NCBI GenBank assembly: GCA_016194975.1
Contig: JACQAM010000008.1
Coordinates: forward strand, 186,001 to 250,000
DNA: 64,000 nt
From: Bacteroidota bacterium
Lineage (GTDB): Bacteria; Bacteroidota; Bacteroidia; Palsa-965
Reading direction: 5' to 3'
Shown: one piece after another, positions 6,864 to 51,130 of the stretch
How the letters are laid out: every line of letters starts with the position of its first letter
Position numbering within the stretch: the stretch's first letter is position 1
Notes under the pieces: generated by a model
Told to the model about the DNA's origin: nothing
The model's input: the letters and a program-made list of their open reading frames with translations, nothing else
The model's database searches: none
Made by a program: the position numbers and the translations under genes

Positions 6864-7262
6864 ATGAAAAAGCGTCCGTATCTCTCCACTTTTCTCTGGG
6901 CGCTTGTCATTCTCATCTTATGCGGAATTCCCGGAAAGGATATTCCGCATATTTCTTTTCTCGAGTTACTGAGTTTTGATAAATGGGTGCATGCTGGAAT
7001 TTTTTTCGTGCTCGTAATATTTTTCATTCGCAGCAATCGCTTGCAGGAGAAAAATAAATATGTGAAAGCGAATGCGGTTTTTATTGCCGTGGGGCTTTCC
7101 ATTCCCTATGGTGGATTGATCGAGATCATGCAGGGAACTCTGTTTGTTGGCCGCAGCGCCGATTTTTATGATTTCATTGCCAACAGCGCCGGCTGTTTCA
7201 TGGCGGCATTAACTTATCCTTTTATCTCGAAAAAAATTCCGAAGTTGCGTTTGCCATTATGA
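6864..7262 (+). CDS. VanZ-like family membrane protein
   Basis: A 132-residue membrane protein with about four hydrophobic segments. It resembles the VanZ-like family: the pattern DKWVHAGIFFVLVIFF followed by a later GGLIEIMQ helix is characteristic. VanZ-like proteins are small integral membrane proteins, mostly of unknown role; one member is linked to teicoplanin resistance. The upstream-open frame reaches 6786 inside gcvH, but the MKKRPYLSTFLW start at 6864 gives a sensible cytoplasmic N-terminus and avoids the overlap. The stop overlaps the next gene by four bases (ATGA), so the two are probably translationally coupled. Confidence 0.8.
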   Translation: MKKRPYLSTFLWALVILILCGIPGKDIPHISFLELLSFDKWVHAGIFFVLVIFFIRSNRLQEKNKYVKANAVFIAVGLSIPYGGLIEIMQGTLFVGRSADFYDFIANSAGCFMAALTYPFISKKIPKLRLPL

Positions 7263-7720
7263 ATACGAATGACGTTATAAAATGGGAGTGCAAACATTTC
7301 CGTGAAATGAATGCAAAGGAATTGCATGCTGTTCTTGCATTGCGATGCGAAATTTTCATCATCGAACAGCATTGCCCTTATCTCGATCCCGATCCCAAAG
7401 ATTTCCGCTCGTATCATGTGATGGGATGGTGTGATGAAAAATTAATTGCAGTGGCGAGAATTGTAGAACCCGGAATTTCTTACAACGAAGTTTCCATTGG
7501 CAGAGTCGCTACTTCTTCGTCCGTGCGCGGTACAGGCGCAGGAAAAATTCTAATGGCGAAGACGATGGAATATATTCGCGCACATTTTGGAAAAGTTCCC
7601 GTGAGAATTTCAGCGCAATCGTATTTGCAGAAATTTTACGAAGGATATGGATTCAAAAGAACAGAAAAGGAAGAATACCTGGAAGATGATATTCCGCATG
7701 TGGAAATGCGCACGAGTTAG
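7259..7720 (+). CDS. elaA: ElaA-type GNAT N-acetyltransferase
   Basis: A 153-residue GNAT-fold protein of the ElaA subfamily. It shows the ElaA hallmark LALRCEIFIIEQHCPYLDPD near residues 27-46 and the acetyl-CoA loop GRVATSSSVRGTGAGKILM. The C-terminal part has the FYEGYGFKR signature. ElaA proteins are predicted acetyl-CoA-dependent N-acetyltransferases with unclear substrates. The ATG overlaps the VanZ-like stop by four bases. Bases 7446-7708 are repeated almost perfectly 2,267 bases downstream as a fragment lacking the N-terminal third. Confidence 0.9.
   Translation: MNTNDVIKWECKHFREMNAKELHAVLALRCEIFIIEQHCPYLDPDPKDFRSYHVMGWCDEKLIAVARIVEPGISYNEVSIGRVATSSSVRGTGAGKILMAKTMEYIRAHFGKVPVRISAQSYLQKFYEGYGFKRTEKEEYLEDDIPHVEMRTS
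7446..7708. repeat. Donor copy of a 263-bp direct repeat (elaA 3' part)
   Basis: This segment is repeated at 9713-9975 with one visible mismatch (T at 7573, C at 9840; silent in a Tyr codon). The near identity indicates a very recent duplication, or an assembly artefact. Confidence 0.95.
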
Positions 7721-12353: not shown

Positions 12354-13595
12354 CTATACGATCATTCCAGCACCGACCGTTTCATTCGTCGCTTCGTCAA
12401 TGAAAATGAGCGAGCCGGTAGTTCTGTTGCGTGAATATTTATCGAAGAACAACGGAACAGTCGTGCGGATCTTTATTCTCGCAATGTCATTCATCGCAAT
12501 GTTCTTGTCGCTTTCATTCCGGTGCAATGTGGAAATATCCATTTTATAAGTGATCTCTTTTACCACGCAACGTGCGTCACGCGAAGTGTGTTTCACATTG
12601 TATTTTCCATTCAACTGAAGTGGTTTTGGATTGAACCAGCACACCATCACATCCACATCCTGCGAAATTTCCGGCTGATTATTTTCGCGAACGATCATGT
12701 CGCCGCGTGAAATATCTATTTCATCTTCGAGCGTGATCGTCACACTCTGCGGAGGAAAAGCTTCCTGAATTTCTCCGGTGAATGTGTCAATAGATTTAAT
12801 TTTTGTCTGGAATCCGCTGGGAAGAACGGTCACCGCATCTCCTTTTTTGAAAACGCCACCCGCAACTCTTCCTGCAAATCCGCGGTAATCGTGGAATTCA
12901 TTATTCATCGGGCGAACCACATATTGAACAGGAAAACGGCAGTCGATATGATTCAGATCGGAAGCGATGTGAATATTCTCCAGTGTGTAAAGAAGTGTTG
13001 CGCCTTCGTACCATTTCATATTTTCAGAACGATCGACCACGTCATCTCCTTTCAAAGCGGAAATAGGAATGAAGGTGATATCGATCGCGTCGAGTTTGGA
13101 TGCGAATGCTTCGAAATCTTTTTTGATCTGCAGGAATATTTCTTCTTTGTATCCGACAAGATCCATTTTATTCACGCAGACAACGATGTGCGGAATTTTC
13201 AACAGCGATGCAATGAAGGTGTGACGCATGGTTTGTTCGATCACACCCTTGCGCGCGTCTATGAGCACGATCGCTACGTTCGCAGTACTTGCGCCCGTGA
13301 CCATGTTGCGCGTGTACTGTATATGCCCGGGCGTATCCGCGATGATGAATTTTCTTTTCGGCGTTGCGAAATAACGATATGCAACATCGATGGTAATTCC
13401 CTGTTCGCGTTCCGCGCGCAATCCATCGGTGAGTAATGCGAGATTCACATATTCCTCTCCGCGTTTTTCGCTCGACTCTTTCACCGCTTCATACTGATCT
13501 TCGAAAATGGATTTCGAATCGTAAAGTAATCTTCCGATGAGTGTTGATTTCCCATCATCAACAGAACCAGCTGTTGTGAAGCGGAGGAGATCCAT
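12354..13595 (-). CDS. cysN: Sulfate adenylyltransferase subunit 1 (GTPase)
   Basis: A 413-residue GTPase subunit of ATP sulfurylase, which drives formation of adenosine phosphosulfate (APS) by CysD. GTP-binding motifs are visible: GSVDDGKS (10-17), DTPGH (87-91) and NKMD (142-145). EF-Tu-like domains II and III follow. The start is placed at MDLLRFTTAG (13595); the longer frame upstream runs into a tandem GATTGTT repeat. There is no fused CysC domain, consistent with the separate cysC upstream. It is the last gene of the cysC-cysD-cysN group and is separated from cysD by a small four-helix-bundle gene. Confidence 0.96.
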   Translation of the reverse strand: MDLLRFTTAGSVDDGKSTLIGRLLYDSKSIFEDQYEAVKESSEKRGEEYVNLALLTDGLRAEREQGITIDVAYRYFATPKRKFIIADTPGHIQYTRNMVTGASTANVAIVLIDARKGVIEQTMRHTFIASLLKIPHIVVCVNKMDLVGYKEEIFLQIKKDFEAFASKLDAIDITFIPISALKGDDVVDRSENMKWYEGATLLYTLENIHIASDLNHIDCRFPVQYVVRPMNNEFHDYRGFAGRVAGGVFKKGDAVTVLPSGFQTKIKSIDTFTGEIQEAFPPQSVTITLEDEIDISRGDMIVRENNQPEISQDVDVMVCWFNPKPLQLNGKYNVKHTSRDARCVVKEITYKMDISTLHRNESDKNIAMNDIARIKIRTTVPLFFDKYSRNRTTGSLIFIDEATNETVGAGMIV

Positions 13596-13612
13596 ATCCA
13601 GGTAGGATTGCT

Positions 13613-13638
13613 GATTGTTGATTGTTGATTGTTGATTT
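13613..13638. repeat. Short tandem repeat (GATTGTT)n before cysN
   Basis: Three perfect 7-base units GATTGTT plus a partial unit, ending 17 bases upstream of the cysN start. The unit number could vary by slippage and alter the leader length. The rest of the 257-base gap to the next gene shows only a weak hairpin. Confidence 0.6.
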
Positions 13639-13779
13639 GGCATTTCTCTATTGTTGATTTCAGATTGCTGAATGTCAATCTGAATTTTTGTATTTAGTTT
13701 TTGAAGTGTCTTTCATTCATTAGAGTTTATATCGATTAAGAGTTGTATAACAATGATTGCAAGCGCTCCATTATTAAAA

Positions 13780-13852: not shown

Positions 13853-14152
13853 TTAGTATTCTTTGAGAAGCCGATCACGTTCTTTTTGTTCGCCAAGATT
13901 TTCTCCCGCTAATATTTCAAGCCAATAACAACTCTCATCAGCCTCTTCTTCCACGATTCCCATTTTATGGACGAATGTTGGTTTTGTTTTACTTCTGCAC
14001 GCAGCACGATAATTAGCACCAACTGCTGTTCCGCATCTATAGAGTTGATCCCCCGGGTACCATTTATCGGGACATTGCGGAAGCTGTTTTACAAAGCGAA
14101 TAACATCAATCGCGAACCGTTTAGTTCTTTTCTTTAATTCATCTTGTGTCAT
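13853..14152 (-). CDS. Four-helix-bundle (S23/intervening-sequence-type) protein
   Basis: A 99-residue protein of the four-helix-bundle family first described from 23S rRNA intervening sequences (S23). Family features are FAIDVIRFVKQLP, the loop GDQLYRCGTAVGANYRAAC, and EEADESCYWLEIL. Members are usually about 115-125 residues; this one stops shortly after the fourth helix begins (RDRLLKEY), so the C-terminus may be shortened. The family role is not settled. It lies between cysD and cysN in the same direction, an odd place for an unrelated gene, and may be a later insertion into the operon. Confidence 0.8.
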   Translation of the reverse strand: MTQDELKKRTKRFAIDVIRFVKQLPQCPDKWYPGDQLYRCGTAVGANYRAACRSKTKPTFVHKMGIVEEEADESCYWLEILAGENLGEQKERDRLLKEY

Positions 14153-14180: not shown

Positions 14181-15086
14181 TCAGAAGTATCCTTGTTTTT
14201 TCCGGTCTTCCATTGCTGCTTCGCTTCGTTTATCATCAGCACGTGTTCCTCTCTCTGTTGTGCGTGACGCTGCAACTTCAAGAACAATTTCTTCCAGTGT
14301 TGAGGCAGTCGATTCCACTGCGCCGGTGCACGTAATGTCGCCGATGGTGCGGAAGCGTACAATTTTTTCTTCGGCCACTTCATTCGGTTTCTTCAGCATG
14401 AAATCAAAATCGGCGAGCCACTGATTATCGCGTTTGAAAACTTTCCGCTTGTGAGAGAAATATAATTTCGGCAGCGGAATATTTTCACGGAGAATATATT
14501 GCCATACATCCATCTCCGTCCAGTTGGAAATCGGGAACACGCGGAAATGTTCGCCCATGTTTTTTTTGCCATTGAAAATATTCCATAATTCCGGGCGCTG
14601 ATTTTTCGGATCCCACTGGCCGAATTCATCGCGGTGAGAAAAGAATCTTTCTTTCGCTCTCGCTTTTTCTTCGTCGCGACGTGCACCGCCAATGGCACAA
14701 TCTGTTTTCAATTCTTCGATCGCTTCGAGCAGTGTTACTGTTTGCAGAACATTCCTGCTCGCGTTGTATCCTTTTTCTTCCACTGCAGTTCCGCGATCAA
14801 TGGAATCCTGAACATATTTCACAATGACTTTTGCGCTGATCTCATTCGCCCACCAGTCGCGGTACTCAAGTGTTTCCGGAAAATTGTGTCCGGTGTCGAT
14901 GTGCAATAATGGAAAAGGAATTTTCGCGGGATGAAAAGCTTTGCGTGCGAGATGAGAAACGACGATGGAATCTTTTCCGCCGGAGAATAAAAGTGCGGGG
15001 CGTTCAAATTGTGCAGCCACTTCGCGCAGTACATAAATGGATTCCGATTCGAGTTCGTCGAGATGTTTGAGAGTGTAATTTTTCAT
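14181..15086 (-). CDS. cysD: Sulfate adenylyltransferase subunit 2
   Basis: A 301-residue catalytic subunit of the CysDN ATP sulfurylase, of normal length. The PP-loop SGGKDS (35-40) binds ATP. Also typical are HIDTGHNFPET, CAIGGARRDEEKARAKER and the C-terminal block TCTGAVESTA followed by RGTRADD. It forms APS from sulfate and ATP using energy from GTP hydrolysis by CysN. It begins one base after the cysC stop, so the two are co-transcribed and probably translationally coupled. Confidence 0.97.
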   Translation of the reverse strand: MKNYTLKHLDELESESIYVLREVAAQFERPALLFSGGKDSIVVSHLARKAFHPAKIPFPLLHIDTGHNFPETLEYRDWWANEISAKVIVKYVQDSIDRGTAVEEKGYNASRNVLQTVTLLEAIEELKTDCAIGGARRDEEKARAKERFFSHRDEFGQWDPKNQRPELWNIFNGKKNMGEHFRVFPISNWTEMDVWQYILRENIPLPKLYFSHKRKVFKRDNQWLADFDFMLKKPNEVAEEKIVRFRTIGDITCTGAVESTASTLEEIVLEVAASRTTERGTRADDKRSEAAMEDRKKQGYF

Positions 15087-15087
15087 T

Positions 15088-15684
15088 TCAGATATTCCTG
15101 TTAACGAATTCCAGCAGATCTTTCAATGATGCTTCGAATGAATTATTTTCAGTATTAATAACCAGCGCTGCATTTTCCGGCGCTTCGAATTCCTGATGAA
15201 TGCCCGTGAAATCTTTTATTTCTCCCGCGCGTGCTTTCGCATACAAACCTTTCACATCACGCTTTTCACATTCAGCAATAGAAGCATTCACATAAACTTC
15301 CAGAAAATCTTTTTCACCTATGATCTTTTTTGCAAGCGAACGGATCTCAATTGTCGGAGAAACAAAACTGCAGATCACAATTACTCCTGAGTCAAGCATC
15401 AGTTTTGCCACTTCCGCTACGCGACGGATATTTTCTGTACGATCCTCATTCGAAAAACCGAGATTGGAATTTATTCCTGCACGCACGTTATCGCCATCGA
15501 GCACATACACTAATTTCCCATTCTCATATAGTGATCTTTCCAGGCCGATAGCGAGTGTCGATTTTCCGGAACCCGACAAGCCCGTCATCCAGATCACTTT
15601 TGCTTTTTGTTTCAGAAGGTCTTCCCGCTCGTTACGCTGAACGAGTTTTTGGAAGATGGGATGAATGTTTTTATCGTTGTTCAT
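15088..15684 (-). CDS. cysC: Adenylylsulfate kinase
   Basis: A 198-residue APS kinase that phosphorylates APS to PAPS. The P-loop GLSGSGKS lies at 35-42, followed by YVLDGDNVRAGINSNLGFS and a lid region ending DFTGIHQEFEAPE. It is the first structural gene of the minus-strand sulfate operon. Its start is 57 bases downstream of a terminator hairpin and 130 bases downstream of the end of a Cys/Met-rich leader ORF, suggesting control by attenuation. PAPS reductase is not in the window; the PAP phosphatase CysQ lies at 20 kb. Confidence 0.96.
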   Translation of the reverse strand: MNNDKNIHPIFQKLVQRNEREDLLKQKAKVIWMTGLSGSGKSTLAIGLERSLYENGKLVYVLDGDNVRAGINSNLGFSNEDRTENIRRVAEVAKLMLDSGVIVICSFVSPTIEIRSLAKKIIGEKDFLEVYVNASIAECEKRDVKGLYAKARAGEIKDFTGIHQEFEAPENAALVINTENNSFEASLKDLLEFVNRNI

Positions 15685-15740
15685 TGCTCATTGAGCATTT
15701 GGTATTGAGCATTATTTTTTTCGTAGAAATTCGTAATAAC

Positions 15741-15768
15741 AAAAAAGTCCTTCCGGAACAGGAAAGAC
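15741..15768 (-). terminator. Leader terminator (attenuator) before cysC
   Basis: Read on the minus strand: arm GTCTTTCC (15768-15761), loop TGTTCC, arm GGAAGGAC (15754-15747), then six T (15746-15741). The stem is 8 bp with one G-U pair. It is a good intrinsic terminator placed upstream of the operon, not after a gene, which is the layout of an attenuator. The loop and 3' arm (15752-15758) can instead pair with 15802-15808 just after the leader ORF. Confidence 0.75.
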
Positions 15769-15813
15769 ATTTTGAGTGTTTTTAGCAATACAAAAACAAA
15801 TTTCCGGATATTA

Positions 15814-15873
15814 TCAGAAACACATACAGCACATCATGCTGCAGGAGTTATAGATATGGAAGTTGTTTTTCAT
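15814..15873 (-). CDS. Cys/Met-rich leader peptide of the sulfate operon
   Basis: A 19-residue ORF, MKNNFHIYNSCSMMCCMCF, starting at 15873 and ending with TGA at 15814-15816. Four Cys and three Met fall in the last nine residues (C11, C15, C16, C18; M13, M14, M17). It starts 16 bases after a TAnnTTTG promoter element and is followed by an intrinsic terminator and then cysC. This order (promoter, short ORF with runs of the pathway's end product, terminator, biosynthetic genes) is the classic amino-acid attenuator. The inferred role is to sense charged tRNA-Cys and perhaps tRNA-Met: stalling would favour read-through into cysC-cysD-cysN. It could alternatively be a small functional metal- or thiol-binding peptide. 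Confidence 0.75.
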   Translation of the reverse strand: MKNNFHIYNSCSMMCCMCF

Positions 15874-15888
15874 TGGCTGTTTCGGGGT

Positions 15889-15896
15889 CAAAGATA
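15889..15896 (-). promoter_or_regulatory. Bacteroidota -7 promoter element of the cysCDN leader
   Basis: On the minus strand the bases read TATCTTTG, a full match to TAnnTTTG, 16 bases before the leader-peptide ATG. A TTG lies at 15923-15921, 24 bases away, slightly longer than the usual spacing, so the -33 element is uncertain. Confidence 0.6.
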
Positions 15897-15933
15897 AACA
15901 AATTGAGAAACATGGCTTCACAATGAAAAAACG

Positions 15934-16067
15934 GGTAGTGGGTCAGTTTGAAAATTCTTAGCGTCTTTGCGGTTTAATAAAAGAATGGTTTAGGAACCGC
16001 CCTTCAATTCTTCAGGGCAAGCTCCGGCGTGAAGTTGAATCGGAAAAGAGCAAACTGAGCCACTACC
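15934..16067. mobile_element. MITE, copy B (134 bp, 8-bp target duplication)
   Basis: This second copy of the element has the same ends, GGTAGTGGGTCAGTTTG on the left and CAAACTGAGCCACTACC on the right. A perfect 8-bp duplication AAAAAACG lies at 15926-15933 and 16068-16075. The left arm lacks the first GCGCCTTA block and the right arm carries a different insert (about 15995-16030), so the two copies have diverged inside while the ends stay conserved. It sits in the 426-base gap between the divergent cysC and deoC genes, between their two -7 elements. Confidence 0.9.
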
Positions 16068-16094
16068 AAAAAACGCCCTTTTCCCGCTATTCCG

Positions 16095-16102
16095 TACATT
16101 TG
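16095..16102 (+). promoter_or_regulatory. Bacteroidota -7 promoter element of deoC
   Basis: TACATTTG matches TAnnTTTG and ends 8 bases before the deoC ATG. The position where a -33 element would lie (about 16068-16076) is occupied by the right target duplicate of MITE copy B, and no TTG is present there. Confidence 0.55.
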
Positions 16103-16110
16103 TTTTCCCA

Positions 16111-17013
16111 ATGAAAAACACATTCGATTTTCACAATACTCCCGTCATCGATCAAGTTGGTGTAGAAGAACGCGTGGCGCGATTCAATTCAAGAAGTATA
16201 AAAAAAACTTCCAAGGTGGAAGGATTGAAACTGGCGCTGAGCATGATCGATCTCACCACGCTCGAGGGAAAAGATACGGAAGGAAAAGTGCGGCAGATGT
16301 GTTACAAAGCGCAACATCCGCACGATGAACTTCCGGGATTACCCACTGTTGCTGCGGTTTGTGTTTACCCGACGTTTGTGAAGCTTGCGAAAAAGGAACT
16401 CGGAAATTCAGGAGTGCAAGTTGCTTCGGTTGCAACCGCATTTCCTTCGGGACAATCGACACTGAAAGTAAAACTCGACGATACTAAATTCGCAGTGGAA
16501 AGCGGGGCCGATGAAGTGGATATGGTTATTTCACGCGGAGAATTTCTTGCCGGCAATTACAATTTTGTTTTTGATGAAATTGCTGAAATAAAAAATGCTT
16601 GTGGAAATGCAAGATTAAAAGTGATTCTTGAAACAGGAGAACTTTCTACGCTTGATAATGTTCGTCGTGCGAGCGAGATCGCTATGCGTGCTGGTGCTGA
16701 TTTCATTAAAACATCAACAGGAAAAATTTCTCCGGCTGCCACACAACCGGTAACACTCGTAATGCTGGAAGCGATACGCGATTACTATTACGAAACAGGA
16801 ATTATGATCGGGATGAAACCTGCCGGTGGAATTTCTACGGCGAAAATTGCATTGCAATATCTCGTAATGGTGAAAGAAACACTTGGTAACGCATGGCTCA
16901 ATAATATCTGGTTCCGCTTCGGCGCAAGTTCATTGGCGAATGATATTCTCATGCAGCTTTGCAAAGAAGCGACCGGAGTTTACCAGGGAGCGGATTATTT
17001 TTCGAAAGATTAG
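16111..17013 (+). CDS. deoC: Deoxyribose-phosphate aldolase
   Basis: A 300-residue DERA, longer than the usual 220-260 because of an N-terminal extension of about 40 residues, as in eukaryote-like DeoC enzymes. It cleaves 2-deoxyribose 5-phosphate to glyceraldehyde 3-phosphate and acetaldehyde. The Schiff-base lysine is Lys200 in GADFIKTSTGK, and the second catalytic lysine is Lys236 in GMKPAGG. VILETGEL (171-178) is also conserved. Two aldehyde dehydrogenase genes follow in the same direction and could oxidise the acetaldehyde. Confidence 0.96.
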   Translation: MKNTFDFHNTPVIDQVGVEERVARFNSRSIKKTSKVEGLKLALSMIDLTTLEGKDTEGKVRQMCYKAQHPHDELPGLPTVAAVCVYPTFVKLAKKELGNSGVQVASVATAFPSGQSTLKVKLDDTKFAVESGADEVDMVISRGEFLAGNYNFVFDEIAEIKNACGNARLKVILETGELSTLDNVRRASEIAMRAGADFIKTSTGKISPAATQPVTLVMLEAIRDYYYETGIMIGMKPAGGISTAKIALQYLVMVKETLGNAWLNNIWFRFGASSLANDILMQLCKEATGVYQGADYFSKD

Positions 17014-33884: not shown

Positions 33885-33975
33885 TAGCGCTGCTTTAGGG
33901 GTGTTTTTCATTGACGAAGAACTGAGATCATACCCTTGGAACCTGACGCAGTTCATACTGCCGGAGGAAAAAGTA
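33885..33975 (+). promoter_or_regulatory. TPP riboswitch (THI element)
   Basis: A thiamine-pyrophosphate aptamer with the conserved cores: AGGGGTG (33897-33903), CTGAGA (33922-33927), ACCC (33932-33935), GAACCTGA (33939-33946), ATACTGCCGGAGGAAA (33955-33970). It lies about 50 bases upstream of thiS. A small hairpin after it (ATGG 33978 pairing with CCAT 33998-34001) could switch translation of thiS. Binding of TPP is expected to lower expression of the operon. Confidence 0.95.
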
Positions 33976-34025
33976 AAATGGTAATTCTTCTCTGCCGCCA
34001 TTCCTGAAGCAACAACATCACCGGA

Positions 34026-50906: not shown

Positions 50907-50926
50907 CAGCAGTTCTTTCAAAAATT

Positions 50927-51097
50927 ACTTATCCGGAAAGGCAGAGGGATAGCGCCCGATGAAGCCTTGGCAACCCTGTTAGAAGGGAGTCAGGAGATTG
51001 GAGATTGGAGAATTTTCTCCTCCCTCCTCCCTCCATTCTCCATTCTTAAAAGAAGGTGCCAATTCGCATCCAGAATTAATTTCTGGAAAAGATAAGT
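50927..51097 (+). promoter_or_regulatory. SAM-I (S-box) riboswitch
   Basis: Helix P1 is ACTTATC (50927-50933) with GATAAGT (51091-51097). The core holds GCAGAGGGATAGCGCCCGAT (50941-50960), GAAGCCTTGGCAACCCTG and AAGGTGCCAATTC (51053-51065), all conserved in S-box RNAs. Helix P3, between GGCAACC and GGTGCC, is extended by a long palindrome of GGAGATTGGAGA/TCTCCTCC words. Downstream genes are a methyltransferase and metH, so SAM would shut off methionine synthesis. Confidence 0.95.
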
Positions 51098-51130
51098 CAG
51101 AAGAATGATCTTACTCATAAAAAAACTGCG

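Follow-up and report, generated by a model that had tools for sequence, protein, structure and literature searches.

A short Cys-rich ORF followed by an intrinsic terminator precedes the sulfate-assimilation genes cysC-cysD-cysN in a 64-kb stretch of Bacteroidota DNA (the window, 64,000 nt in full), and we consider, with a probability of roughly 0.9, that it acts as a trp-type ribosome-mediated transcription attenuator sensing charged tRNA-Cys. As judged by comparing loci, this arrangement of Cys leader and terminator, rebuilt with different sequences, recurs ahead of sulfur genes in many Bacteroidota, and because the decoy ORF and terminator recur there, members of this phylum probably read their cysteine supply through ribosome stalling, in the way that E. 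coli reads its tryptophan supply. Ribosome-mediated transcription attenuators of the trp/his type belong to the Proteobacteria, and those of the trp type also to the Actinobacteria. Bacteroidota are a dominant phylum of soil, water and gut, and to our knowledge the regulation of their sulfur assimilation is poorly understood.

A Cys-rich leader ORF and an intrinsic terminator precede cysC

The leader ORF (15814-15873, minus strand; ATG at 15873, end at 15814) has 19 codons and would encode MKNNFHIYNSCSMMCCMCF, with the Cys codons 11, 15, 16 and 18 as the predicted regulatory codons. Its final nine residues, CSMMCCMCF, hold four Cys and three Met, just as the sequence-only reading of the window had described. 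Such Cys leaders are too short for ordinary gene calling. Among the 812 short ATG ORFs of the 64-kb window, MKNNFHIYNSCSMMCCMCF is the single one with at least four Cys in the last nine residues, and the leader RNA is predicted to fold at -36.4 kcal/mol (z = -4.2), more stably than all 200 of its shuffles. Downstream of the ORF, a terminator scan recovered the 8-bp hairpin with six T that had been reported ahead of cysC. This intrinsic terminator (15768-15741, minus strand) reads GTCTTTCC-TGTTCC-GGAAGGAC, forming an 8-bp stem at 15768-15747, and then TTTTTTG, the T6 run occupying 15741-15746.

The leader could be a Cys-rich ORF that arose by chance beside an ordinary terminator, and the terminator by itself is indeed unremarkable, with 21 terminator-like sites found in the region and 16.1 expected. 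This explanation is left with a negligible probability by two observations: when the 426-nt intergenic stretch was shuffled 20,000 times with dinucleotides preserved, only 20 shuffles (0.1%) contained an ATG ORF whose last nine residues held four or more Cys, and the combination of Cys-rich ORF and terminator recurs in relatives with divergent sequence, a conservation that contradicts chance.

The identity of the sulfate-assimilation genes downstream was borne out by NCBIfam. All on the minus strand, they are cysC, encoding adenylyl-sulfate kinase and predicted to be the first controlled gene (15088-15684; NF003013/TIGR00455), cysD, encoding the small subunit of sulfate adenylyltransferase (14181-15086; NF003587/TIGR02039), and cysN, encoding its large subunit (12354-13643; TIGR02034/NF003478). 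A gene for a 99-aa four-helix-bundle protein (13853-14152, minus strand; TIGR02436) lies between cysD and cysN, and other small ORFs part these two genes in some relatives.

Upstream of the ORF, TATCTTTG (15889-15896, minus strand) matches the TAnnTTTG consensus of the Bacteroidota -7 promoter element. The leader start does lie 16 bases past this element at 15896-15889, as the earlier reading stated, so that 15 nt separate the box from the ATG in a test for a leaderless ORF made on the sequence only. The transcript is expected to start near 15883, about 10 nt ahead of the leader ATG, and the 5′ UTR is probably very short but not zero. Of 40 leaders, 34 likewise have a TA..TTTG-like box 4-21 nt ahead of their ATG.

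Four RNA segments with predicted mutually exclusive pairings

Four segments can be assigned to the leader RNA, all on the minus strand. Segment 1, GAAAAACAACTTCCA (15857-15871), is predicted to pair with segment 2 when the leader carries no ribosome; this 1:2 duplex reaches -9.8 kcal/mol (z = -2.0), is present in the MFE fold too, and is predicted to be a strong protector pairing. Segment 2, ATCCGGAAATTTGTTTTT (15791-15809), would form the 5′ strand of the antiterminator and begins 4 nt past the stop codon, so that a ribosome positioned at this codon would cover it. A ribosome is stated to cover up to about 12 nt beyond the stop codon (PMC4833913), in keeping with the position of segment 2. 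An 8-bp spacer hairpin, TGTTTTTGTATTGCTAAAAACA (15777-15798), is predicted by folding; in the modelled antiterminator it draws segment 2 close to segment 3 and, because it overlaps the 3′ part of segment 2, would compete with the 1:2 pairing. Segment 3, GTCTTTCC (15761-15768), is the 5′ arm of the terminator and is conserved in relatives as [G/A]G[T/C/G]CTTTCC, and segment 4, GGAAGGAC (15747-15754), is the 3′ arm.

In the mechanism that we propose, when cysteine is plentiful the leading ribosome would reach the stop codon and cover segment 2, upon which segments 3 and 4 would form the terminator and transcription would end ahead of cysC. When cysteine is short, the ribosome would stall at the Cys codons and cover segment 1; the freed segment 2 would then pair with segment 3, no terminator would form, and cysC-cysD-cysN would be transcribed. 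On a leader without a ribosome, the 1:2 pairing would leave 3:4 free to form, making off the default state.

The pairings were then compared across leaders. Each of the 17 cysC leaders has a segment that begins -3 to +8 nt from the stop-codon end and is able to pair with the terminator hairpin, and the pairing of segment 2 with the terminator 5′ arm and loop gave a mean z of -2.8 against shuffles, a value uncorrected for the shared ancestry of these 17 leaders. The antiterminator segment is placed differently in some of the sir, korAB and tandem leaders, where it falls within the final part of the ORF. A modelled ribosome at the first Cys codon yielded the antiterminator in 25 of 26 leaders, and one at the stop codon yielded the terminator in 26 of 26, while the 1:2 pairing exceeded the shuffle mean in 23 of 26 (Stouffer -8.2, kinship uncorrected). 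The terminator 5′ arm occurs in the variants GTCTTTCC, GCCTTTCC, GGCTTTCC, GCTTTTCC and GCTCTTCC, and the post-stop segment and the 3′ arm change along with it, so that pairing is kept. At columns -5 to -7 of the tabulated arms, UA/CG, CG/UA and UA/CG/GC pairs were found, segments 2 and 4 tracking segment 3, and RNAalifold detected compensatory change in 5 of 9 pairs of the terminator alignment. An antiterminator with three-way covariation is thus present in relatives, an element beyond what the sequence-only reading had described, and the pairing pattern, as modelled, follows the same four-segment logic as the trp attenuator.

These pairings also bear on another possibility, namely that translation or Rho-dependent termination is what the leader regulates, the mode proposed for mycobacterial poly-Cys leaders, and that the intrinsic terminator is secondary. 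Mycobacterial cys leaders are indeed described as lacking terminators (PMC1262725), and the leaders of Pontibacter and Botryobacter without a clear terminator leave room for such a mode in the phylum. We nevertheless regard it as unlikely here, given that a terminator follows the leader of the window, as it follows every one of the 40 leaders examined, and that the 2:3 pairing targets the 5′ arm of that very terminator.

Alternatively, the ORF could encode a small functional Cys/Met peptide, binding metal or thiol, that acts in trans, with the hairpin merely ending its own transcript. A CCMMCC-like composition does recur, and Met is enriched as well as Cys. The peptides are otherwise unalignable, however, and vary in the spacing and number of their Cys, whereas the feature that is conserved is RNA pairing at the stop codon together with its co-variation with the terminator; moreover, all modules found under a strict criterion (defined below) upstream of sir or cysC lie on the sense strand. 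A trans-acting peptide is for these reasons very unlikely.

Were the ORF incidental, the leader could instead be a T-box or a metabolite-binding riboswitch, in keeping with a genome that itself uses SAM riboswitches (window 50926-51098). A Rfam scan of 15650-16120 returned no family at or near threshold, whether SAM-I, T-box or other cis-regulators, and the sequence from the ORF to the terminator is unconserved except for the pairing arms; both results make this explanation highly improbable. Compared with all these alternatives, ribosome-mediated attenuation remains the preferred reading.

The antiterminator of the window copy is the weakest of the modelled set

The window copy departs from the pattern of the other leaders: at the canonical register, it gave only 0.3 expected antiterminator pairs, the weakest of the modelled set. 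Its segment 2 (ATCCGGAAA) pairs instead off-register, through TCCGGAA, with TTCCGGA (15752-15758, minus strand) in the terminator loop and 3′ arm. This non-canonical pairing reached 4.2-4.5 expected pairs when the RNA had emerged to 15753-15751, and was lost on completion of the terminator; the modelled antiterminator was assigned -11.9 kcal/mol, versus -15.1 kcal/mol for the terminator plus spacer hairpin. Because this pairing is transient and loses to the terminator, the window antiterminator would have to act kinetically, or else regulation would be shallower. In terms of the model, it may act only kinetically, may be partly decayed, or may confer shallower regulation.

The Cys leader and terminator recur ahead of cysC and sir in relatives

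Relatives were picked from whole genomes by CysD and CysC homology. Cys-rich short ORFs occupy the same place ahead of cysC elsewhere in family f1, to which the window belongs, as well as in families f21 and f44, and the encoded peptides, such as MNNNLHISITRYSCKNCCWMCM, MKNSNLHLVMSFVVCTMCCCMTLL, MNVTKFSFSIRTSSPMMCCMLCCC, MKKTNAIARHSCSCCCMMHAC, MKTSNFYKAMSKNNTIMCCMMCCI and others, have little in common beyond the Cys run. Across 39 regions with 257 upstream gaps, 14 Cys-rich short ORFs were detected, 7 of which lay in the gap before cysC. A search of other Bacteroidota for a Cys-rich short ORF and terminator ahead of sulfur genes, which the sequence-only reading had named as a check, was positive in many genomes of several families. 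The comparison with relatives hence supports its interpretation of the locus as a trp- or his-type attenuator for sulfur genes, in which the response to cysteine is a predicted property.

To quantify the recurrence, a strict module was defined: its ORF starts with ATG, spans 8-60 codons and has 3 or more Cys among its final 16 residues, and an intrinsic terminator comes after it. In the 1 kb that precedes sir or cysC, 27 of 140 loci carried such a module on the sense strand, and none of the 140 did on the antisense strand (Fisher p = 3.7e-9, a value that overstates the evidence for these related loci). Elsewhere in the sir loci, the background rate was 0.53 strict modules per 100 kb of strand, a figure that includes genuine leaders of L209. 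Sequence divergence from leader to leader is large among the sir and cysC loci, and the module is patchy, most sampled cysC loci and many sir loci having no strict module. Two f21 loci illustrate loss ahead of cysC: one (L106) has lost the leader ATG and most Cys codons, and the other (L105) retains the terminator with the Cys ORF absent. Terminator arms persist at both loci, and both leaders show decay.

Among 40 leaders, Cys made up 31% of the last 12 residues compared with 2.2% of earlier positions, and Met 18.8% compared with 5.5%. Because Met is enriched near the leader C-termini, Cys alone may not be what is sensed.

A wider set of Cys leaders, some in tandem

A covariance model (CM) was built on the cysC leaders and searched over 295 genomes of the class. 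Hits were obtained in 142 of the 295, a tally that is no measure of prevalence because many CM hits are ordinary terminators. Hits in the class with E > ~1e-4 were mostly of that kind and were rejected, as were the stronger L190 and L193. The CM nonetheless led to modules ahead of NirA-type siroheme reductase (sir) with cobA and cysG, and ahead of korAB, hom and metY, the downstream gene families having been assigned by family search and by eye. Among the genomes with leaders before sir are those of Pedobacter fastidiosus, P. miscanthi, P. suwonensis, P. rhizosphaerae, P. schmidteae and Mucilaginibacter endophyticus.

In the genome from which the window derives, the regulon rests on CM and protein searches. 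There, two Cys leader/terminator units, MKTPQFHNQSKINCNMCCMIIP and MKTATNHFHSTYMCASMCMCCCMRSSPGVLYSS, stand in tandem ahead of an operon that comprises sir, cobA, hom and a CysG-type gene and also contains a weak CysD-like (cysH-like) match; the first of the units corresponds to a weak CM hit (L145, E 0.115). Tandem leaders upstream of the sir operon are also present in a genus mate (G001). The other CM hits in the window's genome, L146-L150, were rejected as ordinary terminators; a leader was searched for at korA of this genome and none was found; and the exact pattern TGYTGYATGTGY gave 4 matches there, equal to the reversed-control count and uninformative alone. Tandem Cys leader/terminator units were seen before sir or cysD operons at L201:12432-12700 (minus strand), L203 ~7022-7450 (minus strand), L219 and L209. 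The second tandem leader ends in ...CMCCCMR(S/G)..G(V/D)LYSS in two species, with the antiterminator strand inside the ORF.

Cys-rich leaders with terminators were also observed ahead of korAB, the 2-oxoacid:acceptor oxidoreductase alpha/beta genes, at L184, L188, L194, L195 and L196 (e.g. MNQSALNTTKMACMCCKFCTCGDCF), a placement suggesting that reductant supply for sulfite reductase could be under cysteine control. Cys leaders would in this way flag genes of a cysteine regulon, such as korAB, beyond what enzyme annotation suggests. At L192, MKNKITMMCCMMGNENYVKA and a second Cys/Met-rich short ORF, each followed by a terminator, stand ahead of a metY-like gene.

In Pontibacter (L216, L220, L232), Botryobacter (L230) and L217, a SAM-I riboswitch (RF00162, 60-68 bits) lies directly upstream of a poly-Cys ORF. 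The genes behind are sir (e.g. after the ORF MNKTSGTSHTNPASAANIPFAVSPQKACCCCCCSC), or an acetyltransferase-like (metX-like) gene and hom. When a terminator was looked for downstream of the Pontibacter and Botryobacter poly-Cys ORFs, no clear intrinsic one was found. From this order of elements, two-input control by SAM and cysteine is possible, and if true, the tandem would place that logic on a single transcript.

Taking these loci together, we lean towards a Cys-tRNA-sensing attenuation regulon of the Bacteroidota, in which independent trp-type attenuators, some in tandem, would stand before cysCDN, siroheme sulfite reductase, korAB (perhaps for reductant supply), hom and metY, with a SAM riboswitch directly before a poly-Cys leader that has no clear terminator in Pontibacter and Botryobacter.

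Relation to known attenuators and leader peptides

Like the trp/his attenuators, the present system has a short leader ORF carrying codons for the product of the pathway, four segments with predicted 1:2, 2:3 and 3:4 pairing, an intrinsic terminator before the first gene, and a segment 2 that a ribosome at the stop codon can reach. It differs from them in its Cys (and Met) codons, its Bacteroidota promoter and very short predicted 5′ UTR, the placement of segment 1 before the regulatory codons and of segment 2 immediately past the stop codon, its tandem copies before sir, and, in some genera, a SAM riboswitch ahead of the poly-Cys leader.

A 2005 study predicted poly-Cys leaders ahead of cys operons in Actinobacteria and stated expressly that they have no terminators (PMC1262725), and mycobacterial poly-Cys leaders are described as responding to cysteine (Canestrari et al., 2020, as cited in PMC9094748). 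As these accounts present them, the mycobacterial leaderless sORFs resemble the leaders studied here in being Cys-rich short ORFs that stand before cys genes and carry their Cys close to the stop codon, in their proposed cysteine sensing, and in being translated from or near the transcript 5′ end, as is likewise predicted here. The two groups of leaders have no sequence relationship, and unlike the mycobacterial loci, which have no conserved terminator (PMC1262725), the Bacteroidota loci combine an intrinsic terminator with a predicted antiterminator, and so would supply the terminator/antiterminator machinery missing from the mycobacterial cases.

For another member of the phylum, Flavobacterium psychrophilum, a transcriptome study noted "strong clues" that leader-peptide attenuation operates ahead of operons for amino-acid biosynthesis (PMC9723704), and its main-text passages concerned name no cysteine or sulfur operons in this connection. 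Our literature search returned no report of a Bacteroidota cysteine attenuator; an earlier mention is possible, for example in the amino-acid attenuation survey of Lopatovskaya et al. (2010). The S-box (SAM-I, RF00162) also controls sulfur genes in Bacteroidota and stands upstream of the Pontibacter and Botryobacter poly-Cys leaders; it senses SAM by an aptamer and not by translation, and is absent at the window locus. What is proposed here is a concrete mechanism with many natural replicates, including the culturable Pedobacter and Mucilaginibacter.

Beyond cysteine, a His-rich leader, MKNSTHIHHHHTYPKG, with a terminator was observed before a hisG-type operon at L199, which suggests that the same architecture may serve other amino acids in Bacteroidota. 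Elsewhere in the window, the SAM-I riboswitch at 50926-51098 (73 bits) is followed by a terminator and by a SAM-dependent-methyltransferase-like ORF from ~51310, and a TPP riboswitch (66 bits) is found at 33887-33986.
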